DNA of 32,846 nucleotides, from the NCBI GenBank assembly GCA_005883955.1, contig VAXH01000069.1:1-32846 (forward strand), written 5' to 3'. The notes under the pieces are model-generated. The model did no database searches and was not told where the DNA came from. It worked only from the letters and a program-made list of their open reading frames with translations. Position 1 is the stretch's first letter, and the number at the start of each line of letters is the position of its first letter. The stretch is from Actinomycetota bacterium (GTDB taxonomy: Bacteria > Actinomycetota > Thermoleophilia > Gaiellales > Gaiellaceae). Below, piece after piece: positions 3-32,590 of this stretch. Made by a program: the position numbers and the translations under genes.

Positions 3-1268
3 CGTGCCGAGATCCGCGCGCGCTACCGGGCGAGGATCGGCGTCGCGACCGGCGTCATCGCCCTCCTGCTCGTCTCGCTGCCCTTCGTGCCCGCCGTCGC
101 GGGGGTCGGCGGCGGAACCGTTCGCTACAGCTACCAGCGCTTTACCAAGGAGATCACGGGTCAGTTCCTCGAGACCCCCCGAGGGCACGTTGCCCTCTTC
201 GCCTGGAGCGATCCGCAGCAGTCCTACCCGCACGACGCGCTGAAGGTGGCGGCGCGGAACGTGCGCGGCTTCGTCATCCGCGCCTCCGCGATCGACAGTC
301 CGGCCGCGTACCAGCTCTACGACCTGGATCGAGGCGGCAGCGTGCCGCTTGCCGTTCGCAGGCGAGGGCCGACGCAGATGACACTGGCGCCGCGGCGGGT
401 GCTGCGCCCGGGGCGCTACGAGCTCGTGGCGGCGAAGGAGGGAATGTTCGGCGGGCGCGACTACGACTACCTGCAGGTGGTGAAGCCCGGATCGCCCGTC
501 ACACCGCTCGGCTCGGCCTCGAGCAGGACGGTGCCGACGGTCGCGGATTCGCTGCTTCCGCTCGGAGCGACGTTCGTCGCACTCCTGTTCGCCGGTTTGC
601 TCGCGAGCTCGTTCGTGCGGCGGCCCGCGGGGCAAAAGGCGTTCTGGGCTGCGGGCTTCGCGTGCTTCGCCGTCGCCGCCGCGTGCGAGGCCGCCGCCCA
701 GCGGGCCGGCTGGTCGGACGGGCTGTTCAAGGCGTACTACGCCGCCGGCGGGGTGCTCACGGTGGCGCTCCTCGGCGCCGGTTCGGCCTGGCTGCTGGTG
801 AAGCAGCGGGCTCGCGACCTGATGCTGGGCGCCCTGATCGTGGCGATGGTCGCTGCGGTCGTCGCCGTGGCGATCGCCCCCGTCGACCACGGAGCTCTCG
901 CGGCCGCCTCGGGCGTGCGGCCACCGTCGAACTCGGCTCTCCAAGGGCACGTGTTCCTGTGGGCGATCGGGCTCAACTCCTTCGGGACGCTGTTCCTGAT
1001 CGGCGGTTCACTCCTGGCGATCATCCGTCGCCAGCGCGTGCGGACGAACGTCTGGATCGGCACCGGCGCCCTTGTCGTCGGGCTGGCGACCGGGATGTCA
1101 CGCGCCGGCACGTACTCGTTCGTCTACGCAGGCGAGCTCATCGGGATCAGCCTGATGTTCTTCGGTTTTCGCTTCGCTGCGGGTTCTCCCCCGAAGGCGG
1201 CGCCGGTGCCGGTGCCGCCGTCCTACTTGATGCCGGCAGGCTCTGTGACCCAGTCGCGGGTCACGTAG
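3..1268 (+). CDS. Multi-pass membrane protein, 5' end outside the window
   Basis: The reading frame is open from the window edge, so the start is missing. The first visible residues form a hydrophobic segment (about residues 15-38), consistent with a signal anchor. About 140 residues follow that look extracytoplasmic, containing a copper-oxidase-like or beta-rich stretch without recognisable catalytic motifs. The C-terminal half has about seven hydrophobic segments separated by short Arg/Lys-rich loops, then a Pro-rich tail. An extracellular sensor-like domain followed by a 7TM block resembles 7TM receptor layouts, but I recognise no family. No neighbour explains its role. The TAG stop is followed directly by the HNH remnant in the same frame. 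Membrane location is well supported; function is unknown. Confidence 0.75.
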   Translation, partial: RAEIRARYRARIGVATGVIALLLVSLPFVPAVAGVGGGTVRYSYQRFTKEITGQFLETPRGHVALFAWSDPQQSYPHDALKVAARNVRGFVIRASAIDSPAAYQLYDLDRGGSVPLAVRRRGPTQMTLAPRRVLRPGRYELVAAKEGMFGGRDYDYLQVVKPGSPVTPLGSASSRTVPTVADSLLPLGATFVALLFAGLLASSFVRRPAGQKAFWAAGFACFAVAAACEAAAQRAGWSDGLFKAYYAAGGVLTVALLGAGSAWLLVKQRARDLMLGALIVAMVAAVVAVAIAPVDHGALAAASGVRPPSNSALQGHVFLWAIGLNSFGTLFLIGGSLLAIIRRQRVRTNVWIGTGALVVGLATGMSRAGTYSFVYAGELIGISLMFFGFRFAAGSPPKAAPVPVPPSYLMPAGSVTQSRVT

Positions 1269-1301
1269 AGCCAGAACGCGAGCCCTGCGTACCGCTTGTA
1301 G

Positions 1302-1550
1302 CGGCGGTGGGGCGCCACGGTAAAGATCAAAGAAGGTATCCGGCCTCGCACGGGCGGGCGAGAGCCAATCCCGGAGCGCGTCCGGCGCGAGGTCTGGCGG
1401 CGCGATGGCGGGCGTTGCGTCGATTGCGGATCGCGCGAGCGGCTGGAGTTCGATCACATCATCGCGTTGGCGAACGGAGGCTCTAACACTGCTCGCAACA
1501 TCGAGTTGCGGTGCGAAGCGTGTAACCGGAAGAAGGCCGTGTCTATTTAG
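1302..1550 (+). pseudogene. HNH endonuclease domain remnant lacking a start codon
   Basis: Between two in-frame stops (1299-1301 and 1548-1550) lies an 82-codon open stretch with a clear HNH nuclease domain. It shows VWRRDGGRCVDCGS, then LEFDHIIALANGGSN, then NIELRCEACNRKK. These give the two CxxC zinc pairs, the DH of the first catalytic half and the closing N..C..CN block. HNH proteins of this type usually carry the domain at the C-terminus of a longer protein. Here there is no ATG, GTG or TTG in frame before the domain, and a stop lies 30 codons before the conserved Trp. I therefore read it as a 5'-truncated remnant. Initiation at an unusual codon cannot be excluded. Confidence 0.7.
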
Positions 1551-1675
1551 TGTTTTCGAGAAACGCGAGGGGCGGGTGGCGCGGTTTGCCAGCGTCCAGG
1601 TCGAGGAGGCCTTCGGCGTTGGCGGGTACGTCCCGGCACTCGTCAATCGGACGCGGGCGGCGGTATGCCTTGCGA

Positions 1676-1703
1676 GCCGAATCCCGCCTAGGCGGGATTC
1701 GGC
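1676..1703. repeat. Perfect 28-nt palindrome (13-bp arms, TA centre)
   Basis: The arm GCCGAATCCCGCC at 1676-1688 is exactly repeated in reverse complement at 1691-1703 around the dinucleotide TA. No T-run follows, so it is not a classical intrinsic terminator. It lies between the HNH remnant and the small zinc protein, 43 nt before the latter's ATG. It could be a factor-independent hairpin terminator, a protein-binding site or a mobile-element scar. Confidence 0.75.
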
Positions 1704-1746
1704 GTTAGGAGGCCGGACAATCGCCCCCCATCGGCATACTGGCCGC

Positions 1747-1950
1747 ATGACCGAGGACGTCTTCTACATCTGCGAGACCTGCCGCCAGAAAATCGACCCG
1801 GACGCTCCCGACACAGTGCGCGCCGTCGAGTTGGTCAAGACCGTGACGTCGGGGCCGACCATCGAGTACCTCGAAGGGATGGGCGTGTTTTTCCACGAGC
1901 GCTGCTACCCGACCGGTTCCCCGGACTACCGTCGCCAGCCCGAAGCCTGA
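1747..1950 (+). CDS. Small zinc-motif protein (67 aa), function unknown
   Basis: A short protein starting MTEDVFYICETC, with a CxxC pair near residues 9-12 and a second candidate metal pair HERC near residues 57-60. The spacing fits a single zinc-binding fold. The middle is charged and soluble, and there is no signal peptide. The ATG was chosen because a -10-like hexamer CATACT (1735-1740) lies only 6 nt upstream, consistent with a leaderless transcript. The same frame is open further upstream but that part is not protein-like. Its stop TGA overlaps a CTG that may start the following glycosylase, suggesting translational coupling. I do not recognise the family. Confidence 0.65.
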   Translation: MTEDVFYICETCRQKIDPDAPDTVRAVELVKTVTSGPTIEYLEGMGVFFHERCYPTGSPDYRRQPEA

Positions 1951-2021
1951 CGCCCGCGACGGATTTCCAACTGCCCCTGACCGGGCCAAGCGGCGAGCCA
2001 GTCGATTTCGCCCGGACGATC

Positions 2022-2861
2022 ATGTCCCACGGCGTTGCCGATCTTCCGCCTGCGCGCATCGATGAGGACGCCCGCACGTACATGACCACCGTGGCGCTAC
2101 CGACCACGAAGCCCCGCACGATCCTGATTCACGAGGGGCGACCCGGATTCGCCCGCGTTCAGGTCAAGGGGCGCAAACCAGGCGCGCGAACGATTCGTGA
2201 CCTCAAGCAGTCGGTGCGCCAGATTCTCAACCTCGATGAGGATCTATCCGAGTTCTACGCCTTGGTCGCCAATGACCCCGAGCTTTCGTGGGCCGTAGGC
2301 GGAGCGGGGAGGATGCTGCGAACGCCGACCGTCTATGAGGCCGTGATCAAAACCGTATGCACAACAAACGTCGCGTGGTCAGCGACGGTGCGGATGGTCA
2401 CGGCGCTCGTGGTCAACCTCGGCGAGAAGGCGGCAGGTGGCGGAGCGCGGGCATTCCCAACTTCCGAGGCGATGGCCGCGATGCCCGAGTCGTTCTACCG
2501 CGAGGTTGTACGCGCGGGCTACCGCAGCACCTACCTCCACGCTCTCGCCGTTGGCGCTGCCGAGGGAACGATCAGCCTCGAAGACCTAGGAGCCTCTACC
2601 GACCTCGCCGATGATGAGGTTGCAGCCCGCCTACTCGCGCTCCCCGGAATCGGGCCGTATGGGGCGGCGCACTTGATGATGTTGCTCGGGCGACACTCGC
2701 GGCTGATCCTCGACTCGTGGTCCCGGCCGAAGTACGCGCAGCTGCACGGGCGGAAGGCGGCAGACAAGACCATCGAGCGGCGGTTCCGTCGCTACGGCCC
2801 GTATGCCGGGCTGGCGTTCTGGCTCTACCTCACGCGCGGCTGGGTGGCGGAGCAGCCCTAG
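2022..2861 (+). CDS. HhH-GPD superfamily DNA glycosylase (AlkA/OGG-like)
   Basis: Predicted base-excision repair enzyme that removes damaged bases such as alkylated or oxidised purines. The helix-hairpin-helix is visible as LPGIGPYGAAHLMML, followed about 11 residues later by LDSWSRPKY, whose Asp (about residue 231 from this ATG) matches the catalytic Asp of the superfamily. No Lys precedes it at the OGG1 lyase position, so a monofunctional glycosylase is likely. The coordinates use the first canonical start. The frame stays open upstream and codes a segment (GEPVDFARTI) that aligns with the N-terminus of the second copy at 8717-9133. The true start may therefore be CTG at 1947, overlapping the upstream stop as CTGA. 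The two copies look about half identical in protein. Confidence 0.8.
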   Translation: MSHGVADLPPARIDEDARTYMTTVALPTTKPRTILIHEGRPGFARVQVKGRKPGARTIRDLKQSVRQILNLDEDLSEFYALVANDPELSWAVGGAGRMLRTPTVYEAVIKTVCTTNVAWSATVRMVTALVVNLGEKAAGGGARAFPTSEAMAAMPESFYREVVRAGYRSTYLHALAVGAAEGTISLEDLGASTDLADDEVAARLLALPGIGPYGAAHLMMLLGRHSRLILDSWSRPKYAQLHGRKAADKTIERRFRRYGPYAGLAFWLYLTRGWVAEQP

Positions 2862-2894
2862 ACGGCCGCGGGTGTTGCCCAGGTACAGCTTGTA

Positions 2895-2956
2895 TTCACG
2901 AAATGGGCTGCCACTGTCGCGTTTCGCGGACGTCGCAAATTCCCGCATTTCGCGAC
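2895..2956 (-). repeat. Dispersed repeat, long copy 1 (62 nt, with TGCGGGAA core)
   Basis: Read on the minus strand, this begins with the core GTCGC..TGCGGGAA..GCGAC (2932-2956), continues through CGCGAAACGCGAC and ends GTGGCAGCCCATTTCGTGAA. It matches 4709-4769 on the plus strand at about 90 per cent, with the last 20 nt identical. The two copies are in inverted orientation 1.9 kb apart. It sits just after the glycosylase stop and before the VapC-like fragment. Confidence 0.8.
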
Positions 2957-2957
2957 A

Positions 2958-3147
2958 AGAGCCGCGGCGGAGCTTCGGGAAGCCGCCATCCTCGAGCTCG
3001 CCGCTCCGCTCACCGCGCCGGGGATCAGCTTCGTCGAGCGACTGCGGGAGCACAAGCTGGCGACCCTAGACCACCGCCCCTTCAGCATGGTCAGGCCGCG
3101 CCAGGGCTCTCAACCTTCTCCAGCATGATCGGCAAGTAGAGGCCTAA
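2958..3147 (+). pseudogene. Possible C-terminal remnant of a PIN-domain (VapC-like) toxin, frameshifted
   Basis: One frame reads ...SFVERLREHKLATLDH then RPFSMVRPR, resembling the end of actinobacterial PIN-domain toxins (typically ATLDRRHFxVVRPR), where the Asp is the last active-site acid. After about position 3102 the expected tail continues in another frame as ALNLLQHDRQVEA and stops at 3145-3147, implying one indel. The conserved N-terminal acidic residues and an antitoxin partner are absent. The upstream limit is set by the dispersed repeat ending at 2956. This is a fragment, so the assignment rests on a short motif only. Confidence 0.4.
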
Positions 3148-4559
3148 TTCGTTAGCGGCGTCCATTGGGCGAACACCTGCCAGGCGTCGGTGAAGGCCGC
3201 GCCCGCGACGTCCTCGTCACACCACACGTGCTCGCCCGGCGGTCCGCAGGCGCCCTCCTGCGAGCTGCCGCCCTGCTCGTACGAGTGGTGGAGCGCGCTT
3301 GCCAGGCGCTCGAGGATCGCGCGGGTCTGGTCGGCGAACTCCGTCTTCGTGAGGCCGTTGAGGTTCCGTGGAGCCCATGCGGTGCCGAAGAAGCCCTGCG
3401 GGATCGTCTGTGGGTGGGCGCCGACGTAATGACGGACGGAAAAGATCTCTTCCGAGACGAAGTCGTTCATCTGCAGCTGCGAGATGTCCGTGTTGCCGAA
3501 GGCAGACGGCCATCGCCAAGCGGCGCTCGTGAGCGCCGTGTACGAGCGCTCCAGGAAAGAGCGTGCCGTCGCCACGCTCGACGGACCCGCCTCGGCGAGG
3601 ATCAGCGGATGCTGAAGGTACGCGTTGAAGGACTCGGCGCGTTGCTCTCGCGGCGCGCCGGCGACGCCCCAGTTGAACGAGTTCGGATACACCTCCTGCG
3701 CCCACCAGCGCACGTCGCGGGCCATCTCGCCCCAGAACCCGTCGTCCTGTAGCCAACGCTCCATCGTCAGCTTGTAGGCGGTCGTGTCCACCAGGTTTTG
3801 CCCCAGTCCGATCACGAAGACGATGCCCTTCGCGAGCGGGAGTGTCCCGTCGCCGTCGTGGAGCCCGCGGACGAGGTCACGCATGTTCGCGCGTGCCGCG
3901 CCGGTGTTCCGGCGCACCGCCGACGAGAACTCGTTGACTGCCCAGGTGTCGCCGGAGGCGATGTCGTAGCCTGCGGCGGCCATTCGCCGGCGAGCCTCGA
4001 TTCCGGCGTCCGTCCACGTCCGCGTCGGATCCGCCCGGACCCAGGCCGACCAGCCCGTGACGTTGATCTCGGCCACCGCGTGGAAGCGCGGCCCGAGGGC
4101 GTGGATGCTAGCCGCGCCGAACGCCTGGCGGAACCTCGTCTTGTCGGCCGCCAAGGGGGGAATGGAGATGTAGTAATCCGCACACGGCGACGGATCGGCC
4201 GCAAGCTTCTGACCCAGGCGCACCCAGTCTTGCTCCGTGTAGAAGACGGCTTCGAGGTGGATTCGGCAGTCCGGCGGAAGCCCCGGGTCGACAACCGGCG
4301 AGGCGGAAGCGCTGGAGTTCGCCGTAGCCGTAGCGTCGGTGGCGGCCTCCTCGTCGAGCGACGGCACCGGGTCGGACGACTGAAGGCAGTCGACGGCGGA
4401 AAGCGTTGCGACGTCGGCTGTTCCGCACGGCGGCGGCTCACCGACGTAGGTGGGATCGTCAATGCCCGGTCCAGTGGACGTCGACTCGTCTGCGCTTGTC
4501 GCTCCGGTGAAGACGCTGAGCGAGAGGAGTGTCGCAACCAGCAGAGCAAGCTTGTACAT
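3144..4559 (-). CDS. Secreted protein of unknown function (471 aa)
   Basis: The chosen start gives MYKLALLVATLLSLSVFTGA, a typical signal peptide with cleavage near residue 24. The frame is open 32 codons further upstream, but that part does not resemble a leader. A low-complexity Ser/Ala/Thr/Asp linker of about 80 residues follows, then a globular domain of about 360 residues rich in Trp and aromatic residues. The segments AEINVTGWSAWV and DTWAVNEFSS alternate strand-like and helix-like stretches, and the NE could recall the acid/base Asn-Glu of clan A glycoside hydrolases. That is speculation, and the second catalytic Glu was not located. Cys residues near the C-terminus may form a disulfide. 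The gene is flanked by inverted copies of a 61-62-nt repeat. Confidence 0.65.
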   Translation of the reverse strand: MYKLALLVATLLSLSVFTGATSADESTSTGPGIDDPTYVGEPPPCGTADVATLSAVDCLQSSDPVPSLDEEAATDATATANSSASASPVVDPGLPPDCRIHLEAVFYTEQDWVRLGQKLAADPSPCADYYISIPPLAADKTRFRQAFGAASIHALGPRFHAVAEINVTGWSAWVRADPTRTWTDAGIEARRRMAAAGYDIASGDTWAVNEFSSAVRRNTGAARANMRDLVRGLHDGDGTLPLAKGIVFVIGLGQNLVDTTAYKLTMERWLQDDGFWGEMARDVRWWAQEVYPNSFNWGVAGAPREQRAESFNAYLQHPLILAEAGPSSVATARSFLERSYTALTSAAWRWPSAFGNTDISQLQMNDFVSEEIFSVRHYVGAHPQTIPQGFFGTAWAPRNLNGLTKTEFADQTRAILERLASALHHSYEQGGSSQEGACGPPGEHVWCDEDVAGAAFTDAWQVFAQWTPLTN

Positions 4560-4708
4560 CACAGCGAGCCTCGGACCTTGCATCCCCAAGTACGCCCCGT
4601 CCGAAACGACGAAGTTCCGGGTACGAGGTGTCTGCGATCTCTCCGGAACGAACACTTGTAGCGAGTGCGGGCGGGTCGACCACGCCGCTCATTGCGCCGG
4701 CCGGAGGT

Positions 4709-4769
4709 GTCGCAAACTGCGGGAATTGCGACGGGCGCGAAACGCGACGGTGGCAGCCCATTTCGTGAA
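4709..4769 (+). repeat. Dispersed repeat, long copy 2 (61 nt)
   Basis: Core GTCGCAA-N10-TTGCGAC at 4709-4732 forms a 7-bp dyad around TGCGGGAA. The following 37 nt match copy 1 (2895-2956, opposite strand), including an identical final 20 nt. It is directly followed by the composite motif at 4768-4794. Confidence 0.8.
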
Positions 4770-4794
4770 GACGATTTGAACCCACAGACGAACT
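4768..4794 (+). repeat. Composite repeat motif copy 1 (27 nt)
   Basis: Starts AAGACGATTTGAACC and ends AGACGAACT. It matches 24 of 27 positions of a copy on the minus strand at 8702-8728. In both places a TGCGGGAA core follows downstream in the same orientation (34 nt away here, 77 nt there), and both cores are followed by GCGTGC. Confidence 0.7.
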
Positions 4795-4828
4795 CGCCCC
4801 GAAACGGCTAAGCGCGCGCGCATCGGGC

Positions 4829-4852
4829 GTCGCCCAATGCGGGAAATGCGAC
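4829..4852 (+). repeat. Dispersed repeat core (24 nt), short copy
   Basis: Reads GTCGCCCA then ATGCGGGAAATGCGAC. The flanking arms GTCGC/GCGAC form a 5-bp dyad around the invariant TGCGGGAA, and GCGTGCGG follows. It lies in the gap between the secreted-protein gene and the CHRD gene. Confidence 0.7.
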
Positions 4853-4918
4853 GCGTGCGGCACTCGGGCCGCAACTTGTTCCGGGCGGGGGCTACTGCGA
4901 GCCGTCGATCGTGGGAGC

Positions 4919-5506
4919 CTAGTAACCGGAGCTCGTCGTCGTGCCTCCTGTGGTCGTCCCGCCGGGCGCTCCTGGAGGTCGGAGTCGCCTTGATCTGTGC
5001 GCGGATCTCACCCTGCGGATTGAGCTCGTGTGCACGTTGACGTACGCTGCACCGCCGAGGAGCGCGTGCAGGAGGCGGACGTTGCCCCCCGATCGGGCCG
5101 GTGAAGGAGCCGTGCGAGTTCGGCTTGCAGGGCGCGCAGAGCGGAATCGCGACCGGGCCGGCTGTGCCCGGTGGCCCGAGGTGAACGTGGGCGGCGGACG
5201 CCGGCCCGCTCAGGTGCTCGAAGACCACGTGCCAGGCAAGCGTGCCGCTGGTGCCTTTGGGCGTGATCGTCGCGGTGAAGGAACCGGCGCCCGAGGCGGC
5301 GTCTTTTGCCCTTGGAGCGTCCTGGGCGGTGCGGAGCGTCGCCTTCAGGGCGTAGCTCTGGGTGGTTGTCTTGGCCGCTTTCGTCGTGGTCGCCGCCTTC
5401 GTTGTCGTCACCGCCTTCTTGCCGCCGCCGCAACCGGCCGCGACGATCGCGACCGTGGCGAGAAAGGGGGGCCAGTGCTCACGAATGTCCCCTTGAAGCG
5501 CCTCAC
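4919..5506 (-). pseudogene. CHRD-domain lipoprotein, reading frame broken by about four indels
   Basis: A GTG at 5504-5506 gives MRRFKGTFVSTG. One frame over, the sequence continues as a lipoprotein signal with lipobox IVAAGC, a Thr/Lys/Ala repeat linker and a CHRD (chordin-like) domain with SGAGSFTATITP and ASAAHVHLGPPG. The domain then shifts frame to VRLLHALLGGAAYVNVHT, back to LNPQGEIRAQI, and again to a PGAPGG..TTTGG..SSGY tail ending in TAG. Two shifts fall in six-base homopolymers (5466-5471 and 5085-5090); the others are near 5027 and 4974. CHRD proteins are usually secreted or surface-bound with no known catalysis. The protein is clear in pieces. Whether the breaks are real decay or sequence error cannot be decided here. 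Confidence 0.7.
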
Positions 5507-5684
5507 TTGATCGAGGTCAAAGCTAGCGGCGTCGGCGAGGTGCTCCTCCAACGCGTCACCGGACACGAACAGGGCTCGCCGAGCGCCAGAAGCCCACCCC
5601 GACCGGAGACGGGATGGCCGGATGGGCGCCCGTTCGTTTCTCGGCGTCGTACACTCGGGCCCTCGCTACCGAGGGAGGTCGACG

Positions 5685-7058
5685 ATGGCACAAGTGGCGA
5701 CGATCGAGGGGGAGCGTGTCGAGTCTCTCGCCGCCGGGTTCTCCGGTGTTCTGCTTCGGTCGGGGGACGAGGGATACGAGCAGGTGCGGCGGGTTCACAA
5801 CGCGCTAGTCGACAAGCGGCCCCTGCTGATCGCGCGCTGCCGAGGCGCAGCCGACGTGGTCGGCGCGCTCGCCTTCGCCCGCAGCGGAGGACTCGAGATC
5901 TCGGTGCGAGGCGGCGGGCACAACGTGGGCGGGAAGGCGGTCACGGACGGCGGCGTGATGATCGACCTCTCGCTCATGAAAGGCATCCACGTCGATACCG
6001 CAGCACAAACGGCGCGCGCGCAGGGCGGCGTCACCTGGGGCGAGCTGAACCGCGAGACGGCCCTGCATGGGCTCGCCACGACCGGTGGAGTGGTCTCGAC
6101 GACCGGCATCGCCGGACTGACGCTCGGAGGCGGGCTCGGCTGGCTGAACGGCGTGCACGGGCTCGCCGTCGACAATCTCCTGTCGGTCGAGCTGGTGACT
6201 GCGTCCGGCGACGTTCTGACGGTGACGGCGAAGAGCGACCCCGACCTTTTCTGGGCGCTGCGCGGCGGCGGCGGCAACTTCGGCGTTGCCACCTGGTTCG
6301 AGTACCGCCTGCATCCCCTGCAGGAAGTTCACGGCGGTCTCATAGCTCACCCCTTCGACGCTGCCTCCGGCGTTCTGCGCTTCTTCCGTGACGTTTCGCC
6401 GAAGCTTCCGGACGAGCTGTGGGTGGTCGCGGGCCTGGTGCATGCCCCGGACGGGTCCGGTGCCAAACTGGCCGCACTGGCCGTCTGCCACTGCGGCCCG
6501 TCTGCGCAAGCCGAGCAGGATCTCGGACCTATGCTCGAGTTCGGGTCACCGGTCATGTCGGAGGTAGGTCCGATGCCTTACCCGGTCGTGAACACCTTGT
6601 TCGACGAGGCGTACCCGCCCGGCGTGCTCAACTACTGGAAATCGAGCTTCCTGCACGAGTTGAGAGACGAGGCGATCAACGTGCTGGTCGAGCGATTCGC
6701 TGTTACGCCTTCGCCGATGACCGCGGTGGTGATCGAGTACTTCCATGGAGCCGTCTGCCGCGTAGACGTGTCCGAGACGGCCGTGCCCCACCGGGAGCCG
6801 GGATACAATCTTGGCATCTTCTCCGAGTGGACAGATCCAGCCGCAACGGATGAGAACGTCGCTTGGGCTCGGGAGACCTATGCCGCACTCGAGCCGCACT
6901 TGGCCCCGCTCCGGTACGTGAACTACTTGGACGAGGACGATGTGGGCAATGCGGTGCGGGCTGCCTACGGCCCCAACTACGAGCGATTGCGCCAGCTCAA
7001 GCGGAGATACGACCCGGACAACCTATTCAGGTTGAACACGAACATCGACCCGGCATAG
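5685..7058 (+). CDS. FAD-binding oxidoreductase, BBE (berberine bridge enzyme-like) family
   Basis: A 457-residue flavoprotein of the PCMH/VAO superfamily, likely oxidising an alcohol, sugar or similar metabolite with covalently bound FAD. RGGGHNVGG carries the His (about residue 79) that binds FAD in this family. The Cys used for a second covalent link in bicovalent members is absent from the TTGGVVSTTGIAGLTLGGG region. WALRGGGGNFGV completes the FAD domain. The BBE C-terminal domain is recognisable as YVNYLDED and YDPDNLFRLNTNI. The start was placed at the ATG preceded by GGGAGG 6 nt upstream, rather than at an earlier ATG 63 nt away. Substrate unknown; it appears monocistronic. Confidence 0.88.
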   Translation: MAQVATIEGERVESLAAGFSGVLLRSGDEGYEQVRRVHNALVDKRPLLIARCRGAADVVGALAFARSGGLEISVRGGGHNVGGKAVTDGGVMIDLSLMKGIHVDTAAQTARAQGGVTWGELNRETALHGLATTGGVVSTTGIAGLTLGGGLGWLNGVHGLAVDNLLSVELVTASGDVLTVTAKSDPDLFWALRGGGGNFGVATWFEYRLHPLQEVHGGLIAHPFDAASGVLRFFRDVSPKLPDELWVVAGLVHAPDGSGAKLAALAVCHCGPSAQAEQDLGPMLEFGSPVMSEVGPMPYPVVNTLFDEAYPPGVLNYWKSSFLHELRDEAINVLVERFAVTPSPMTAVVIEYFHGAVCRVDVSETAVPHREPGYNLGIFSEWTDPAATDENVAWARETYAALEPHLAPLRYVNYLDEDDVGNAVRAAYGPNYERLRQLKRRYDPDNLFRLNTNIDPA

Positions 7059-7379
7059 AGGCGCAGGCGTCCGCGCGCGGTACCGATTTACGAGGCCTTC
7101 GAAATTCCCTATGACGGCCTCGAACCGTCAGGGCTGCTCTACGCCTCGTCACCAACTAACGACCTGGCCATCCAACCACGACGCGCGAAACTCGGCCCCC
7201 AAGCGCGATTCCCGGCTCATCCTGCTCGCCACCGAGCCCCGGCGCTCGCTTGTCGCAGAGTGCGGGAAGTCCGACGTTGCCGCCGATGGCTTCCACATAG
7301 TGGTGCTGAACCTTTTCTGGCCTGTTCGAATGCGCTCGGCCTAGATTGAGCCGGCCCATCCGCAAGACTGAGGCCGAAG
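7059..7379. other. Intergenic gap with a repeat copy and a weak dyad
   Basis: No credible gene is visible in this stretch between the convergent oxidoreductase and hydrolase genes. It contains a CGAGGCC/GGCCTCG dyad at 7091-7122 with an 18-nt loop, possibly a weak terminator for the oxidoreductase, and a dispersed repeat core at 7252-7275. A 77-codon open frame runs through it but is composed partly of the repeat. Confidence 0.55.
7252..7275 (+). repeat. Dispersed repeat core, short copy
   Basis: Reads GTCGCAGAG then TGCGGGAAGTCCGAC. It keeps the invariant TGCGGGAA and a GTCG/CGAC outer dyad like the copies at 2932-2956, 4709-4732, 4829-4852 and 8601-8624. It lies in a gap between two convergent genes. 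Confidence 0.65.
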
Positions 7380-8261
7380 TCAGGCGCCATGGTCGTCGAG
7401 GAGGATCTCAGCGACGCGGGTTGGCTGTTCGAGGGCAGCGAAGTGACCGGTCTCGGGAAGCGAGATCGATCGGGCGCCGCGAAGCAAGGACAGGTTGGCT
7501 TCACGCTCGGGGATGCGCGACCAGTCGTGATCGCCGTAGATCAGGGTCACGGGAGTGGTGACGCGGACGTAGAGTGCTCGGGCGGCGATCATGCTGTCCA
7601 CGTTGCGGAAGACTTCGCGCGCCACGCGCGGATAGCCGCGACGGCGGCCGACCCGACGCAGCTCGCCCAGGTAGTGCTTTGGGAGCTTGCTGCCGTCGAA
7701 CAGACCGCCCCGCAGCACGATGCCCAGGACCGGCTTGTTCTCCATCCTCGTGACCACCGGCCCGATTGCCGGGAGGCATGCTCCGCCGACGTAGATCGAG
7801 GCGACGCGGTTGGCTCGCCCGACGCCTTCGGAGTAGTCGTACGGGTTGAAGGCGACGACGCGTCGGACGCGGTCTTCGAGCTCGGTTGAGGCCGTCAGTG
7901 ACATCGTCGCACCCATCGACTCGCCTGCAAGGGTCACATCCTTGAGGCCTAGCGTCTTGACGAACTCGACGGTCGCGCGGCGGAGCGCCGGCTCGGTGTA
8001 GCTCGCGCCCGGCGTGATGTCGGACCAGCCCATGCCGGGCATGTCGATCGCGTAGACGGTGAAGGCGTGGGAGATTTTCGGGATCACGAATTGGAACTGA
8101 TCGAGCTGTGTGCGGACCGTGTGCAGCAAGATCAGCGTCGGGCCGGAGCCCGCCTTCAAGTACCTCAAACGCGTCCCGTCGGCGAGCTTGGCGTACTCAA
8201 TCTCCCCTGACGGAGACCATGTCCTGGTGTAGTCGCTGTTCGGCTCGGATTCCGTTCCCAT
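7380..8261 (-). CDS. Alpha/beta hydrolase
   Basis: A 293-residue soluble alpha/beta-hydrolase fold enzyme. The nucleophile elbow GESMG places the catalytic Ser near residue 115. YGDHDWSRI near the C-terminus supplies the likely acid, and ETGHFAALEQP the catalytic His. The oxyanion-hole region is LLHTVRTQ. The start was chosen at the ATG after GGGAGGAG, 6 nt upstream; the frame stays open about 85 codons further upstream without family resemblance. A Ser nucleophile argues against epoxide hydrolase or haloalkane dehalogenase, which use Asp, and favours an esterase, lactonase or C-C hydrolase. No neighbour indicates its substrate. Confidence 0.85.
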   Translation of the reverse strand: MGTESEPNSDYTRTWSPSGEIEYAKLADGTRLRYLKAGSGPTLILLHTVRTQLDQFQFVIPKISHAFTVYAIDMPGMGWSDITPGASYTEPALRRATVEFVKTLGLKDVTLAGESMGATMSLTASTELEDRVRRVVAFNPYDYSEGVGRANRVASIYVGGACLPAIGPVVTRMENKPVLGIVLRGGLFDGSKLPKHYLGELRRVGRRRGYPRVAREVFRNVDSMIAARALYVRVTTPVTLIYGDHDWSRIPEREANLSLLRGARSISLPETGHFAALEQPTRVAEILLDDHGA

Positions 8262-8716
8262 CGTTATCTCCTCCCGCCGATATGGCGGGGCTTTCACCGG
8301 CCTACTGGGTGCGCCTGGCACACCGCGCGCGGGTCGAGCTGTGCGTTGCCGTCTCATTCTCTTTGCACCGCGAGCGAGCGCCGACAGAAGACGCCGGGGT
8401 TGACCCAGCCACACCGCCTCGACGTCTGCCGCCGCTTCCACTAGTCCCGCTTGCCCGCGGCAGAGTATTTCCCAGGGGTCCGGCGAGGAAGAGGCGTGAG
8501 CAGAGCACTCCGCCACGGCGAGACCTCAGCGCTCCCGTCTTGGCCGTACACGCGCTCCCGGCACAGGGGCTGAGTTTGTTGCTGTCGGGTACCGGCACGC
8601 GTCGCTCTTCCCGCATTCCACGACACGCGCGTCCACATTGTCGGCAGCTTCGATCTCAGCAAAAACGACTTGATCCGCCCAACAGGTAGTCGCCTCCCGG
8701 AAGTTCGTCTCTAGGT
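8262..8716. other. Gap between hydrolase and truncated glycosylase, repeats only
   Basis: About 455 nt without a credible gene. It contains a repeat core on the minus strand (8601-8624) and the composite motif (8702-8728), which overlaps the end of the truncated glycosylase. If the missing 3' half of the glycosylase once lay here it is no longer recognisable: no helix-hairpin-helix motif was found in any frame. Confidence 0.55.
8601..8624 (-). repeat. Dispersed repeat core, minus-strand copy
   Basis: On the minus strand it reads GTCGTGGAATGCGGGAA then GAGCGAC and is followed by GCGTGC. It shares TGCGGGAA and the outer GTCG/CGAC dyad with four other copies in the window. It lies 77 nt beyond the composite motif at 8702-8728, in the same arrangement as at 4768-4852. 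Confidence 0.7.
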
Positions 8717-8728
8717 TCAAATGGTCTT
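8702..8728 (-). repeat. Composite repeat motif copy 2, at the break of the truncated glycosylase
   Basis: On the minus strand it starts AAGACCATTTGAACC and ends AGACGAACT, differing from 4768-4794 at three positions. It begins inside the codons for the last three residues of the truncated glycosylase and supplies the TGA stop. Beyond it no similarity to the intact glycosylase is visible. Confidence 0.7.
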
Positions 8729-9133
8729 GATCACGTCCTCGAAGACGCTCGGAGCACGGAGCATCCTGCCGGCGCCGATCGCCGTCCACGAGAGCTCGGG
8801 ATCGCCGGCCACGAGCTCGTAGAAGTCCGAGAGGTCCTCGTCAAGGGCGAGCACGTGCCGGACGCGGGCGACGAGTCCGTCGGCGGTGCGGGCCGAGGGA
8901 GCGCGGCCGCGGGCGGTGACGCGCGCGTAGCCGCGCCTGCCGGGGCCAATCTCGATCGTGCGCGCCTTGCCGTTCACGGCCAACGTCAGCTCGAGCGTGG
9001 GAACGTCCTCGTCGAGCCGCATCGGGGGCAGCTCGACGAAGCCGTGGGAGAGGAGCGTCCGCTGTAGGTCGACAGGCTCGCCGCCGGCTCCGACGAGCCT
9101 GATCTCGGCGCTCCAGGGCTGTACTTTCGTCAC
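8717..9133 (-). pseudogene. 3'-truncated second copy of the HhH-GPD DNA glycosylase
   Basis: The GTG at 9131-9133 starts a 138-residue protein matching the N-terminal half of the intact glycosylase at 2022-2861: GEPVDLQRTLLSHG, then LDEDLSDFYELVAGDPELSW and GAGRMLRAPSVFEDVIKT. The intact copy continues from the same VIKT motif, whereas here a TGA follows the next Ile. The helix-hairpin-helix and catalytic Asp are therefore absent and the product cannot be an active glycosylase. The reading frame itself is undamaged, so truncation may be recent, or the N-terminal domain may be kept. The start abuts the divergent hydantoinase start with no gap. Confidence 0.75.
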
Positions 9134-10876
9134 GTGGCCATCCTCGGCGTCGACGTCGGCGGCACGTTCACGGATGCGGTGTTGCTCACCGACGAGAACG
9201 AGCTGCGCACGGCCAAGATTCCGACCGCGCGTCGCCAGGAGGAGTCCGTGCTCGCGGCAGCCGCCGCGGTCGGCGCGGCGCAGGTCGAGCGATTCGCTCA
9301 CGGGACGACTGTCGCCACGAACGCGCTCCTCGAACGCAAGGGCGCGCGCACAGCGTTCGTCGGCACCCAGGGCTTCGAGTACCTCCTCCACCTGCGGCGG
9401 CAGAACCGAGCCGAGCTCTACCGGCTCTGCGCGGACCATCCCACGCCGCTCGTGCCGATCGAGCGCTGTTTCGGGGTGCGCGAGCGCATGGGGCCAGAGG
9501 GGGTGATCGAGCCGCTGGAGCTCGGCTCCCTGCCGGACTTCGAGGCCGAGGCGGTTGCGGTCTGCCTGTTGTTCTCGTTTCGTGATCAAGCTCACGAGCA
9601 GGCGGTCGCGACGGAGCTTCGGCGGCGGCTGCCGGAAGCGCGGGTGGTCGTCTCTCATGAAATCTCCCCGGAGTTTCGCGAGTACGAACGCGCGTCGACA
9701 ACCGCGGTCGACGCTTATCTGGGGCCGGTCATCGCCGGGTATCTCGACGCGCTCGGGGAGCGAACTGCCGCCGCAGGGCTGCCGGAGCCGCTCGTGATGC
9801 GTTCGTCGGGCGGCGTAGCGTCGCTCGAGGAGGCCGCCGCGCATCCGGCGGTCGCGCTCCTGTCCGGGCCGGCTGCGGGCTCAGTCGGCGCGGCGCTGCT
9901 CGCTCGCCGAGCCGGGTTCGAGAACGCGATCTCGTTCGACATGGGCGGGACGTCGACCGACGTCTCGCTGATCGTCGGCGGCCGCGCGAGACTCGCCGCG
10001 GAGCGAGAAGTCGGCGGCTATCCGCTCAGGCTTCCGGCTGTCGACCTGCATACGGTGGGGGCCGGGGGCGGCTCGGTCGTCTGGCTCGACCGCGGCGGCG
10101 CGATTCGCGTCGGCCCCGAGAGCGCCGGCGCCGCTCCGGGCCCCGCCTGCTACGGCCTCGGCGGGACGAGGCCGACCGTCACCGATGCGAATCTCCTGCT
10201 CGGCCGGCTGCCGGCTGTCCTCGCGGGGGAGATCGAGCTCGATGCCGATGCCGCCGCCCGGGCGTTCGCCGGCATCGATCCGTCCGCAGCACTCGAGGTC
10301 GTCAATGCCGAGATGCTCCGGGCTCTCCGCGTGGTCTCGGTCGAGCGCGGCCACGATCCGCGCGAGTTCGCGCTAGTGGCGTTCGGAGGCGCGGGCCCGT
10401 TGCACGCCTGCGCCCTCGCCGACGAACTCGAGATCGGGACGGTGCTCGTGCCGGCCGCTGCCGGCGTCCTCTCTGCGCTGGGGCTCGTTGCGAGCGAGGA
10501 GCGGCACGACCGCGTCGTGCCCTACGTGCGCCCGCTCGCGCAGGTGACCGACCTGCCCGCCGAGGGCGAAGCCGATCTCCGCTACACAGGCCAATCCTTC
10601 GAGCTGACCGTGCCGATCCAGGACGGCCTGGCGCAGGCGTTTCACCGCGCGCACGAGGAACGGTACGGCTACGCGGATCGCGAGCGAGAGCTCGAGCTCG
10701 TCGCCGTCCGGACAGCCGAGACGACGCCGGCGCCGGAGTTCGATCTACCGCCGGGCCGGCCGCTCCATGTCGAAGGCCCGGCCACGCTCGAGCTCGAAGG
10801 TGCCACGTGCTTTGTTGCCCCCGGGTGGGTGGGGGATGGCGATGGAGATAGCACGTTGGTGCTGACGAAAGCGTGA
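9134..10876 (+). CDS. hyuA: Hydantoinase/oxoprolinase family protein, subunit A
   Basis: The ATP-dependent N-methylhydantoinase/5-oxoprolinase/acetone carboxylase family hydrolyses or carboxylates cyclic amides and related substrates. Subunit A carries the nucleotide-binding acetate/sugar-kinase-like fold. Visible are the N-terminal phosphate loop GVDVGGTFTDAV, the AHGTTVATNALLERKG motif, the second phosphate motif FDMGGTSTDVSLI and the AFGGAGPLHA region near residue 420. At 580 residues it is shorter than the usual 650-700, mainly in the C-terminal part, although the family ending APGW..LVL is present. Subunit B follows about 70 nt downstream. The GTG start was chosen because the motif begins five residues later. 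Exact substrate cannot be told. Confidence 0.88.
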   Translation: MAILGVDVGGTFTDAVLLTDENELRTAKIPTARRQEESVLAAAAAVGAAQVERFAHGTTVATNALLERKGARTAFVGTQGFEYLLHLRRQNRAELYRLCADHPTPLVPIERCFGVRERMGPEGVIEPLELGSLPDFEAEAVAVCLLFSFRDQAHEQAVATELRRRLPEARVVVSHEISPEFREYERASTTAVDAYLGPVIAGYLDALGERTAAAGLPEPLVMRSSGGVASLEEAAAHPAVALLSGPAAGSVGAALLARRAGFENAISFDMGGTSTDVSLIVGGRARLAAEREVGGYPLRLPAVDLHTVGAGGGSVVWLDRGGAIRVGPESAGAAPGPACYGLGGTRPTVTDANLLLGRLPAVLAGEIELDADAAARAFAGIDPSAALEVVNAEMLRALRVVSVERGHDPREFALVAFGGAGPLHACALADELEIGTVLVPAAAGVLSALGLVASEERHDRVVPYVRPLAQVTDLPAEGEADLRYTGQSFELTVPIQDGLAQAFHRAHEERYGYADRERELELVAVRTAETTPAPEFDLPPGRPLHVEGPATLELEGATCFVAPGWVGDGDGDSTLVLTKA

Positions 10877-10945
10877 CGCGAGGGTGACAAGGCGCTCGCT
10901 TGCTACGCCGACCCGGAGGACGTCCGGGCTTTGCCCGGGGAGAGC

Positions 10946-12433
10946 GTGAAAGTCGAGCTGCAGGTCATCGGCAGCTCGCTGCGCTCGATCGCGGAGGAGA
11001 TGGGCGCGGTGCTGATCCGGTCATCCTTCTCGGCCAACATCAAGGAGCGCCGTGACTGCTCGACGGCGCTCTTCGACGAGCGTGGACGGATGATCGCCCA
11101 GGCCGAGCACATCCCCGTCCACTTGGGCGCGCTCCCCGACGCGGTCGCCGCCGTGCGCGCGCACGGGCCGGCGTCGGAAGAGGTCTTCATCCTGAACGAC
11201 CCGTACACGGGCGGCACACACCTCCCGGACATCACGCTTGTCTCCCGGACGGCGGTCGGCTTCGCGGCGACACGCGCCCACCACGCCGACGTCGGCGCCG
11301 CCGAGCCTGGAAGCCTGCCCGCAGGCTCCAGGCGGCTGGACGAGGAGGGCGTGGTGATCCCCCCGACGCGGCTTGACGAGGCGACGCTCGACGACCTGAC
11401 GGCGCGAATGCGGAACCCAGACGAGCGGCGCGGCGACCTGCGCGCCCAGCTCGCCGCGAACCGGCTCGCCTCCCACCGGGTCGAAGAGCTCTGCGCACGT
11501 CGCGGTCGCGAGCAGGTCGTCGCGGCGATGGACGAGCTCCACGACTACGCCGAGCGCAGCGTGCGGGCCGCAATTGCCGCGCTGCCCGACGGCCGCTACG
11601 AGGCGAGCGACGTTCTCGAGGCGCAGGAAGGAGACCTCGAGCTGCGGACTGCTGTGACGATCGCCGGCGACGGGCTCGAGATCGACTTCGCCGGCACGGC
11701 GGCCCAGCACGACGGGAACCTCAACTGCCCGCTCGCAGTGACGCGATCGGCCTGCTACTTCGTCGTGCGCTGCCTGACGGATCCGGACGCGCCCGCCTCG
11801 GGCGGTGCCTTCGCGCCCATCACTATCAGCGCCCCCGAAGGCTCGCTCGTCAACGCCCGGCCGCCCGCGGCGGTCGCCGCCGGCAACGTCGAGACGTCGA
11901 GCCGGATCGCCGACGTCGTCTTCCTCGCGCTGGGCGAGGCGATCGACGTGCCGGCGCAGGGCCAGGGGACGATGAACAATCTGACGCTCGGCAACGACCG
12001 CTTCACTTACTACGAGACGATCGGCGGCGGCCAGGGCGCGTGCCCGGACGCCGACGGCCCCTCCGCCGTCCACGTCGCGATGTCGAACACGCTCTCGACC
12101 CCGACCGAGGCGCTCGAGCTCGCCTACCCGATCCGGGTCGAGCGCAATGCCCTGCGGCTCGGCTCCGGCGGCGCGGGTCGCCACCGTGGCGGCGACGGCG
12201 TCGTTCGCGAGTTGCGGGTGCTCGAGCCGTGCCGGCTCTCGATCGTGAGCGAACGGCGACGGCACGCACCGCAGGGCCGCAACGGCGGGGACCCCGGTGC
12301 GCCCGGCCGGAACCTGCTCAACGGCGAGGAGCTCGCGCCGAAGATCACCCGCGCTCTAGCACCGGGCGACGTCGTCAGGATCGAGACGCCGGGCGGCGGG
12401 GGCTACGGATCACCCGGCTTGCCGCCGTCGTAA
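10946..12433 (+). CDS. hyuB: Hydantoinase/oxoprolinase family protein, subunit B
   Basis: Partner of the upstream subunit A in an ATP-dependent hydantoinase, oxoprolinase or acetone-carboxylase-like complex. Family signatures are IAEEMGAVLIRSSFSANIKE, RRDCSTALFD, the NDPYTGGTHLPD motif, HHADVGA, and the C-terminal GGGGYG before the stop. About 495 residues is normal for subunit B. GTG at 10946 was chosen because GGGGAG lies 5 nt upstream; a TTG 15 nt earlier is an in-frame alternative. The gene overlaps the end of the convergent GFA-family gene by 31 nt. Substrate is unknown. Confidence 0.88.
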   Translation: MKVELQVIGSSLRSIAEEMGAVLIRSSFSANIKERRDCSTALFDERGRMIAQAEHIPVHLGALPDAVAAVRAHGPASEEVFILNDPYTGGTHLPDITLVSRTAVGFAATRAHHADVGAAEPGSLPAGSRRLDEEGVVIPPTRLDEATLDDLTARMRNPDERRGDLRAQLAANRLASHRVEELCARRGREQVVAAMDELHDYAERSVRAAIAALPDGRYEASDVLEAQEGDLELRTAVTIAGDGLEIDFAGTAAQHDGNLNCPLAVTRSACYFVVRCLTDPDAPASGGAFAPITISAPEGSLVNARPPAAVAAGNVETSSRIADVVFLALGEAIDVPAQGQGTMNNLTLGNDRFTYYETIGGGQGACPDADGPSAVHVAMSNTLSTPTEALELAYPIRVERNALRLGSGGAGRHRGGDGVVRELRVLEPCRLSIVSERRRHAPQGRNGGDPGAPGRNLLNGEELAPKITRALAPGDVVRIETPGGGGYGSPGLPPS

Positions 12434-12825
12434 CGCGGCAGTCCGTCGTCCGGGAGCTCGTCCCAGGGCGCCCGCGAGGCGACATACGTGTGGAACTGGG
12501 GACGGATCTGCGGGTCGTCGTCGAGCGAGCCGAGCCGGATCGAGATCTCGTCGCCTTCTGGCCAGCGGCCGCCGAACAGCGACGAGCCGCAGACGCTGCA
12601 GAAGACCTTGACCGCCGTGCCCTGCTCGGGCGCATAAACACGTAGGAGCTCCTCGCCTGACAGGAGCCGAAATTGCTCGCGCGGAACGCGCGCCGGCGTC
12701 AGGCCGAAAGTCCCTGAGTGCTTACGACAGAGCGAGCAATGGCAGTGATTGGCCCGGCGGAAGGGGAGCTCCACCTCGAAGGTCACGCCTCCGCACAGGC
12801 AGCTGCCGCGCACCGAATCTGCCAC
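12403..12825 (-). CDS. GFA/CENP-V family zinc protein
   Basis: A 140-residue protein with the glutathione-dependent formaldehyde-activating enzyme (GFA) fold. Three Cys groups are visible: GSCLCGG near residue 8, CHCSLC near residue 28 and CSVCGS near residue 75, which bind two structural or catalytic zinc ions in the family. FRLLSGEELLRVY and the ending with short acidic loops fit. Family members are usually annotated from the S-hydroxymethylglutathione synthase prototype, but actinobacteria commonly lack glutathione, so the real activity is uncertain. GTG start. Its 3' end overlaps the hyuB 3' end tail to tail. Confidence 0.85.
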   Translation of the reverse strand: MADSVRGSCLCGGVTFEVELPFRRANHCHCSLCRKHSGTFGLTPARVPREQFRLLSGEELLRVYAPEQGTAVKVFCSVCGSSLFGGRWPEGDEISIRLGSLDDDPQIRPQFHTYVASRAPWDELPDDGLPRYDGGKPGDP

Positions 12826-12851
12826 GCGACCAAGCTACACTTCGCCCCGGG

Positions 12852-13106
12852 ATGTGGGAGCTTCTCTTCATGATGCTGATCCTGAAGATCCCGATCGTCT
12901 ACCTGTGCCTGGTCGTCTACTGGGCCGTGAGGGCCGAGCCGAAGCCGCCCGAGCCGGCGCTCCTGCCGGTCCTGCCGGAGCAGCCTCCGCGCGGGCCGCG
13001 TCCCCTGGTGGCACGGCGACGGCCTCCCCGCCGGCCCTCTCGCGGCGGCCCGCACACGCCGCGCGGCGGGACGAGGCGCACCAGAACGGCACGAGCGATC
13101 TCGTGA
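12852..13106 (+). CDS. Small single-pass membrane protein with basic tail (84 aa)
   Basis: Starts MWELLFMMLILKIPIVYLCL, one strongly hydrophobic segment (about residues 3-26), then a Pro-rich stretch and a strongly Arg-rich tail. The tail probably faces the cytoplasm or binds nucleic acid or phospholipid. A -10-like TACACT at 12836-12841 lies 10 nt before the ATG, suggesting a very short leader. Its stop overlaps the GTG of the next small membrane protein as GTGA, so the two are probably translated together. No family recognised. Confidence 0.6.
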   Translation: MWELLFMMLILKIPIVYLCLVVYWAVRAEPKPPEPALLPVLPEQPPRGPRPLVARRRPPRRPSRGGPHTPRGGTRRTRTARAIS

Positions 13107-13363
13107 GCACACCCGCCCCGACGGCAGACCGCCCTGGCGAAGCGGTCGCCGGCATTCTCGCGACACTTGCGATCGTCGCCAGCCTCGTCGCCCTCGACTA
13201 CCGGCCGGTGCGGATCACACCGTTCGCGATCTTGATCTCGCTGATCGCTGCCGGAATCGGCGGCCGCCACCAGCGACTCGCGGCCGCCGCACTCGCGATC
13301 TCCGGTGCCTGCTTCATCGTCGGCACGTTCTTCGCGATCATCACGAATCACCCGATTTTCTGA
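13103..13363 (+). CDS. Small membrane protein with three hydrophobic segments (86 aa)
   Basis: The GTG start overlaps the preceding stop by four bases (GTGA). The product has three hydrophobic segments of about 18 residues each: AGILATLAIVASLVAL, ITPFAILISLIAAGIGG, and a final one ending near ACFIVGTFFAIIT. Short basic loops separate them. It is too small for a transporter on its own and may be a DUF-type accessory membrane protein. Coding is supported by the overlap with the upstream gene and by codon-position GC typical of the region. Confidence 0.6.
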   Translation: MSTPAPTADRPGEAVAGILATLAIVASLVALDYRPVRITPFAILISLIAAGIGGRHQRLAAAALAISGACFIVGTFFAIITNHPIF

Positions 13364-32420: not shown

Positions 32421-32429
32421 CGGCCCCAA

Positions 32430-32462
32430 GAGGCGTGTCCCGGTGCCAGGCATCAGGCCACG
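32430..32462 (+). repeat. 33-nt direct repeat, copy 1
   Basis: Starts GAGGCGTGTCCCGGTGCC and ends AGGCATCAGG then CCACG. It differs from copy 2 (32535-32567) at a single base, which breaks one pair of the outer stem seen in copy 2. It lies 9 nt after the stop of the FAD oxidoreductase. Confidence 0.8.
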
Positions 32463-32475
32463 ACTGGAACGGTCA

Positions 32476-32501
32476 GCTCGCCGCCGCCTGCAGCGGTGAG
32501 C
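32476..32501. terminator. Hairpin between convergent genes
   Basis: GCTC-G-CCGC (32476-32484) pairs with GCGG-T-GAGC (32493-32501), a 9-position stem with one G.T wobble and an 8-nt loop. It lies between the convergent FAD oxidoreductase and solute-binding protein genes and could terminate both. No U-run. Confidence 0.4.
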
Positions 32502-32534
32502 GGGCTCGTGACTCTATGCGTTCCCTGGCCGCGC

Positions 32535-32569
32535 GAGGCGTGTCCCGGTGCCAGGCATCAGGACACGCC
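32535..32569 (+). repeat. 33-nt direct repeat, copy 2, with 9-bp dyad
   Basis: The same unit as 32430-32462. Here GGCGTGTCC (32537-32545) pairs with GGACACGCC (32561-32569), and an inner dyad TGCC-A-GGCA lies at 32549-32557. The nested symmetry suggests a hairpin or protein-binding repeat at the end of transcription units. Confidence 0.75.
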
Positions 32570-32590
32570 CCGAACGGACACTGCGCGACG

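Follow-up and report, generated by a model that had tools for sequence, protein, structure and literature searches.

A probable acquired island within a DNA glycosylase gene of a Gaiellaceae bacterium, and a 24-bp core sequence that may act as an exchange point

Results

The window analyzed here is the whole 32,846-nucleotide stretch of contig VAXH01000069.1, from a draft Gaiellaceae assembly (G000; 126 contigs, 86% completeness). Next to hyuA it holds two parts of one DNA glycosylase gene, separated by about 7.4 kb that contain a second, intact glycosylase and several further genes. The genes and boundaries at this locus are as follows.

1241 to 1309, minus strand: last 23 codons of the resident glycosylase (residues 255-277), severed from its 5' part
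1308 to 8701, no strand assigned: probable island of ~7.4 kb in place of 409 bp of the resident glycosylase, edges located to within ~14 nt
2022 to 2861, plus strand: intact glycosylase ORF in the island (TIGR00588 (ogg), E 5.2e-12)
3144 to 4655, minus strand: cargo, large protein of unknown family (ORF list)
4689 to 5411, minus strand: cargo, CHRD-domain ORF (PF07452, E 1e-10, residues 23-94 of 240)
5622 to 7058, plus strand: cargo, FAD-linked oxidase of the berberine-bridge type (PF01565, PF08031)
7107 to 7129, minus strand: possible degraded piece of a tRNA-Thr(GGT) 3' half (91% over 23 nt, E 0.014)
7380 to 8516, minus strand: cargo, alpha/beta hydrolase (PF00561)
8717 to 9136, minus strand: 5' part of the resident glycosylase at its ancestral site beside hyuA (homology, synteny, tree)

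Alignment to G001, a genome of the same genus, places both flanks of this segment side by side. Window positions 3-1307 align to 8717-7413 of G001 contig C8 (82%) and positions 8702-13361 to 7003-2382 of the same contig (83%), so that the flanks are neighbors in G001, 409 bp apart. The gene order there is hyuB, hyuA, glycosylase and then the gene that matches window 87-1268. The glycosylase adjoins hyuA in other genera as well (for example G006 and G015) and lies near it in G010 and G005, with gaps of 0.5-1.1 kb; G002 has the same synteny, with 417 bp between the flanks plus an extra insert between hyuA and the glycosylase. Within the intervening segment the sole resemblance to this locus is the carried glycosylase, and GC content is 0.62-0.70 in the island windows vs. 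0.675-0.737 outside. We regard 1308-8701 as a probable genomic island of acquired DNA, which took the place of 409 bp in the middle of the resident glycosylase beside hyuAB and which carries an intact, diverged copy of that gene.

The original prediction took a 27-nt motif at 8702-8728 as the exact truncation point of the glycosylase, and the comparison bears this out, since homology to intact relatives stops inside the motif: at 8702 for G001, G005 and G024, and at 8714-8715 for G002, G010, G015 and G031. In the more distant G008, homology halts earlier, at 8734. The accompanying claim that the catalytic half of the gene is gone needs correction; it is the middle that is missing, amounting by the alignment ends to 409 bp of the G001 gene and 417 bp of the G002 gene, and the last 23 codons persist 7.4 kb away at 1241-1309 (74% identity, E 2.3e-5), in DNA continuous with the G001 and G002 gene ends. 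Both remnants belong to one gene, lie on the same strand and flank the island. In the tree the resident remnant groups with G001 and G002 (support 100/100), which identifies the second glycosylase as the resident gene and the first as the newcomer. A second glycosylase copy without its middle, retaining residues 1-84 and 227-277, was seen in G015 (C354, 4056-4452; L190).

Both window glycosylases are provisionally placed by resemblance among the HhH DNA glycosylases (OGG/AlkA class); the TIGR00588 match of the carried copy, at 45.5 bits, falls far short of the curated cut-off of 397.85, and Pfam at E 0.01 returned no family for them. The nearest relative of the carried copy here is found in G008 (74%), a genome of a different genus, g6, and the two group together with support of 100/99. 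The tree has 18 rows and 15 inner branches, of which 3 have good support and 11 are left open, and its bootstrap had not settled. The carried glycosylase may stand in for the broken one.

The hydrolase shares 88% DNA identity over 541 bp with the end of G001 contig C35, and the FAD oxidase has DNA relatives in many family genomes; with such relatives inside the family, the island looks, on sequence comparison, like a mosaic drawn from the family's own gene pool. The product of 3144-4655 has no family match in profile searches at E 0.01 and E 1. The 3' part of the CHRD ORF extends through two of the core sequences described below (A and C) and may not be original.

No tRNA was found in the window by ARAGORN, and Rfam searches of 1900-9200 at E values up to 1 gave no match. 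The tRNA-Thr piece at 7107-7129 lies away from the island boundaries. Elsewhere in the genus, G001 contig C35 (L257) carries three tRNA-Thr(GGT) 3' halves about 3 kb apart (762-806, 4212-4258 and 7125-7189), two of them followed by GCAAC direct repeats, with five more partial copies elsewhere in that genome; the three halves look like an array of integrated units. The best tRNA-Thr(GGT) match of the present genome occupies positions 1-69 of contig C61 (L266), at the contig end, as expected if a repeat array follows the tRNA-Thr. In G027 (L241, 3998-4076), only 16 nt separate a core from sequence that shares 92% identity with the 3' part of a G001 tRNA-Val gene. The extra insert of G002 (C10, 800-2573; L184) measures ~1.6 kb, lies between hyuA and an intact glycosylase and is flanked by diverged copies of ~140 bp; its edge begins CAGAGACGAACT, resembling the right half of the window motif. 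The neighborhood of the glycosylase gene may be an insertion hot spot. Near the contig end, at 32422-32580, the window also holds two 54-nt direct repeats, 85% identical, which form inverted repeats as well.

The repeated elements of the island comprise two copies of the 27-nt motif and five copies of a 24-bp core, named A to E.

2932 to 2956, minus strand: core B, with one extra base (sequence comparison)
4708 to 4772, plus strand: A/B block, consisting of core A and 40 nt downstream, repeated at 2892-2957 (minus strand)
4709 to 4732, plus strand: core A (core pattern)
4768 to 4794, plus strand: 27-nt motif, island-internal, between cores A and C (pairwise match, family search)
4829 to 4852, plus strand: core C (core pattern)
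7252 to 7275, plus strand: core E, one mismatch (core pattern)
8601 to 8624, minus strand: core D, one mismatch (core pattern)
8702 to 8728, minus strand: 27-nt motif at the right edge of the island (pairwise match, G001/G002 alignment, family search, glycosylase comparison)

The two 27-mers match at 24 of 27 positions when 4768-4794 (plus) is compared with the reverse complement of 8702-8728, and each, read in its own orientation, is followed by a TGCGGGAA core and then GCGACGCGTGC, as had been predicted. The TGCGGGAA sequences lie within 4829-4852 (plus) and 8601-8624 (minus), GCGTGC follows the core at both copies, and the spacer between 27-mer and 24-nt core measures 34 nt in the first copy and 77 nt in the second. 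In window coordinates the two copies are inverted, not direct. Across the window, eight diagonals reach at least 24/27 (three direct pairs, three inverted pairs and two hairpins), the others tracing by inspection to paralogous genes, to the A/B repeat, to a tandem repeat and to hairpins; among 50 dinucleotide shuffles, three held any pair at this level (one direct, two inverted), and there were seven hairpins in addition. A chance origin of the 27-mer match taken alone is thus only moderately unlikely, at about 3 in 50 windows, and becomes less likely given the two related cores beside the motifs. A search of 103 family genomes for further copies with up to three mismatches returned just these two places.

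Between cores A and C, an A/B-type block runs to 4772 and a C/D-type block starts at 4768 with AAGACsATTTGAACC; at 8728 that same block end abuts the glycosylase gene. The 27-mer thus terminates one island block on its outer side. The original prediction was to be refuted by relatives that show the motif as ordinary coding sequence, and this is the case by half: G001 reads AAGACGATCTGCAC-GACGAACT at the motif position, so that both ends of the motif resemble normal codons and its middle does not. At the break, AAGACGATCTGCACGACGAACT is the sequence of the intact gene in G001, G005 and G024. Seven glycosylase genes were compared with the internal copy, and in five of them the break codons gave the best local match, with shuffled-motif p values of 0.000 (G001), 0.001 (G024), 0.002 (G005), 0.006 (G010) and 0.044 (G002); there was no such match in G008 (p 0.935) or in the glycosylase that the island carries (p 0.948). 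The edge copy, taken whole, resembles the glycosylase genes less clearly (p 0.036 to 0.909), with no strong match and with the break as the matching place in three of seven. Neither motif nor core was seen at the left junction.

Based on this resemblance of the internal copy to the KTICTTN codons of the gene, we infer that a short stretch of identity shared by the island and its target gene was probably where the right junction arose. The leading alternative, which we give somewhat less than an even chance, is microhomology-mediated illegitimate recombination in which a chance similarity (AAGACnATyTG) served to join the island, the opposite end lost 409 bp and the motif had no special role. 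The short and imperfect identity, the deletion in the target and the asymmetric edges all agree with such an event; however, this block end recurs within the island next to other sequence (4768-4772) and so looks like a recurring unit end. Site-specific integration, with the 27-mer as an att site of an element that recognizes the KTICTTN codons and the copies being attL/attR-like and attP-like before later inversion and deletion, appears unlikely. The internal copy does fit the target codons at the break in five of seven genes, the G002 insert in the same gene neighborhood begins CAGAGACGAACT, like the right half of the edge motif, and tRNA-Thr 3' halves are repeated in the same genus as in att arrays; on the other hand, att sites on either side of an insert would be direct and the two copies are inverted, the central part of the motif is unlike the gene, the left junction is without the motif, and the ORFs scanned include no integrase.

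An assembly chimera, in which the assembler joined a 7.4-kb segment to the gene, is very improbable: the genome is fragmented into 126 contigs and the segment has repeats, but one and the same gene contains the two junctions, its parts lie on the expected strand, and the flanks keep the order seen in relatives. The simple form of the original proposal, that a repeat element inserted or recombined at the gene end and the downstream half was lost, is the least credible and is refuted by the far gene end 7.4 kb away and by the several genes within the island, even though the motif sits at the break and supplies the stop codon. What survives of that proposal is that recombination at a repeat-bearing edge destroyed the gene; the insertion of a single repeat as the cause does not survive, the island holding the internal 27-mer, five cores and an intact glycosylase.

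All five cores found in the window lie inside the island and belong to a 24-bp near-palindrome, GTCGCnnnnTGnnGGAAnnGCGAC. The pattern built from the window copies has four matches in this genome, all four in the island on this contig; core B, with its extra base, escapes it. The two copies of the A/B block are 89% identical and begin one base ahead of the core. Neither junction has a core: D lies 77 nt inside the right edge, and the core nearest to the left edge is 1.6 kb from it.

With a relaxed pattern, 18 of the 103 family genomes yield 83 exact matches in total, against one for a reversed control. Of these, 25 fall in G008 and 19 in G068, often several to a contig, ~0.3-10 kb apart, in both orientations. 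Nearly all of 89 cores have GTCGC and GCGAC arms around a 14-nt centre, the set having been picked by a pattern that contains these arms, with at most one mismatch. Positions 12-13 vary more between genomes than within; within genomes these central bases, and likewise base 8, are more uniform than the outer variable bases 6, 7, 9, 18 and 19. One variant, GTCGCyTCGTGsCGGAAGAGCGAC (L216, L218, L225, L297), has both flanks common to G064, G012 and G061 and shares one flank with G006; at ~5 of the 83 matches, it may be ordinary conserved sequence rather than a repeat. A scan of genome contigs with the TGCGGGAA core pattern found at least 118 stretches, of which the 80 listed have one match each in scattered phyla; most of these are taken as chance. 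One stretch matching this pattern, L032, is identical to G023 over 8,000 bases. A narrower core pattern had no match in viral contigs.

Among the 89 cores (at most one mismatch, chosen loci), 29 pairs share flanking sequence, 8 upstream only, 20 downstream only and one on both sides, at a threshold never reached in ~3,000 null comparisons. With 76 exact cores from a wider set of family loci the counts are 8, 20 and 4, so that 28 of 32 pairs are one-sided; the TCGTGsCGG variant (G064, G012, G061, G006) supplies three of the four two-sided and three of the 20 downstream pairs. A single G068 repeat accounts for most of the 20 downstream-only pairs, which therefore lack independence; judged by eye, roughly a dozen cases are separate. 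Shifting the anchor by 200-300 nt leaves 0-1 one-sided and 2-4 two-sided pairs; shifts of 100-150 nt leave 2 to 14 that are one-sided and 2 to 7 that are two-sided, because shared blocks end or begin within those flanks. Of 32 alignments through the pairs, 7 have an end exactly at a core boundary, 11 have one no more than 2 nt away, 21 no more than 7 nt and 30 no more than 25 nt. Clear examples of the pattern are a unit of ~860 bp in G001/G002 and the G008 pairs L313/L318 and L313/L314, and in G112 a repeated stretch also stops at the last base of the core. One G112 copy appears by eye to contain a long palindrome.

These comparisons suggest that the core behaves like an exchange point and may be a recombination site for swapping gene units. 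A single repeat with the core in its middle was considered and rejected, as flank sharing is one-sided; some pairs share one flank through all 200 nt examined, with the other flank unshared. We also weighed a reading in which the 24-bp core is REP-like, a MITE or a terminator hairpin beside which repeats and mobile units insert, with no role in exchange. The core is an imperfect palindrome, mostly intergenic where viewed and of mixed orientation, one abundant one-sided repeat occurs in G068, and transposases of the IS481, IS630, IS3 and IS110 types are present in the core-bearing loci. Yet in several genera the shared flank is in some pairs the upstream one and in others the downstream one, with the change at the core itself; within a genome, central bases 12-13 (and also base 8) vary less than the outer variable positions; and the pattern of a dispersed MITE or REP element, a whole repeat that moves with both flanks unrelated, was not seen. 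The core has the inverted half-sites and short centre of a site-specific recombination site. A hairpin or REP-like origin is doubtful in our estimation. In G008 (C55, 12066-13436; L314), an IS110-family transposase lies ~0.65 kb from a core. No integron integrase or recombinase appeared among the families listed (25 of 122 and 25 of 329) for 105 ORFs from G008 and G068 loci, or among those for ten ORFs scanned singly.

Discussion

We propose, tentatively, that this actinobacterial family has an undescribed gene-shuffling system distinct from integrons, with GTCGCnnnnTGnnGGAAnnGCGAC as its recombination site, and that the system would swap gene units in both orientations between islands. One such island would have broken the DNA-repair gene of this genome and brought in a foreign copy whose codons no longer match the break-site motif. 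In the portions of the literature available to us no description of a 24-bp core site was found, which is weak evidence of novelty.

Several known systems offer points of comparison. Integron attC sites and their cassettes are similar in that short near-palindromic sites lie between accessory gene units whose partners change at the site, and comparative evidence for such exchange is present here, with 28 of 29 or 28 of 32 pairs one-sided. The attC boxes R'' and R' read RYYYAAC and GTTRRRY; the cores lack these boxes and instead have GTCGC/GCGAC arms within 24 nt only. They also occur in both orientations on one contig, unlike the uniformly oriented attC sites: the cores on G008 C5 run -,-,+,-,+, and five of six in G023 (L232) are plus. 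Small recombination sites such as hix/gix, dif/pdif and the shufflon sfx consist of inverted half-sites around a short centre, ~24-30 bp in all, with several copies in both orientations. The core shares this layout and length class, but it differs in sequence, and its units are whole genes spread over several contigs.

Tycheposons are tRNA-targeted integrative islands. Likenesses to such islands are the repeated tRNA-Thr 3' halves in the same genus and the possible remnant in the island; in contrast, the present island sits in a protein gene, and its tRNA piece spans just 23 nt. Islands inserted in protein genes include SGI1 at trmE and its relatives at dusA (PMC8409611). The present island resembles SGI1-type islands in having a conserved protein gene as its place of insertion. 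It differs in the loss of the central part of that gene and in bringing along a complete, diverged homolog, which lies kilobases away from the right junction.

Should the core prove to be a genuine exchange site, this group of uncultured actinobacteria would have a cassette-like system outside integrons, recognizable by a 24-bp pattern, and this would help to explain the reshuffling of accessory genes in these organisms. In the glycosylase case, the island breaks a gene while supplying its homolog, a loss that would be hidden from surveys of gene content.
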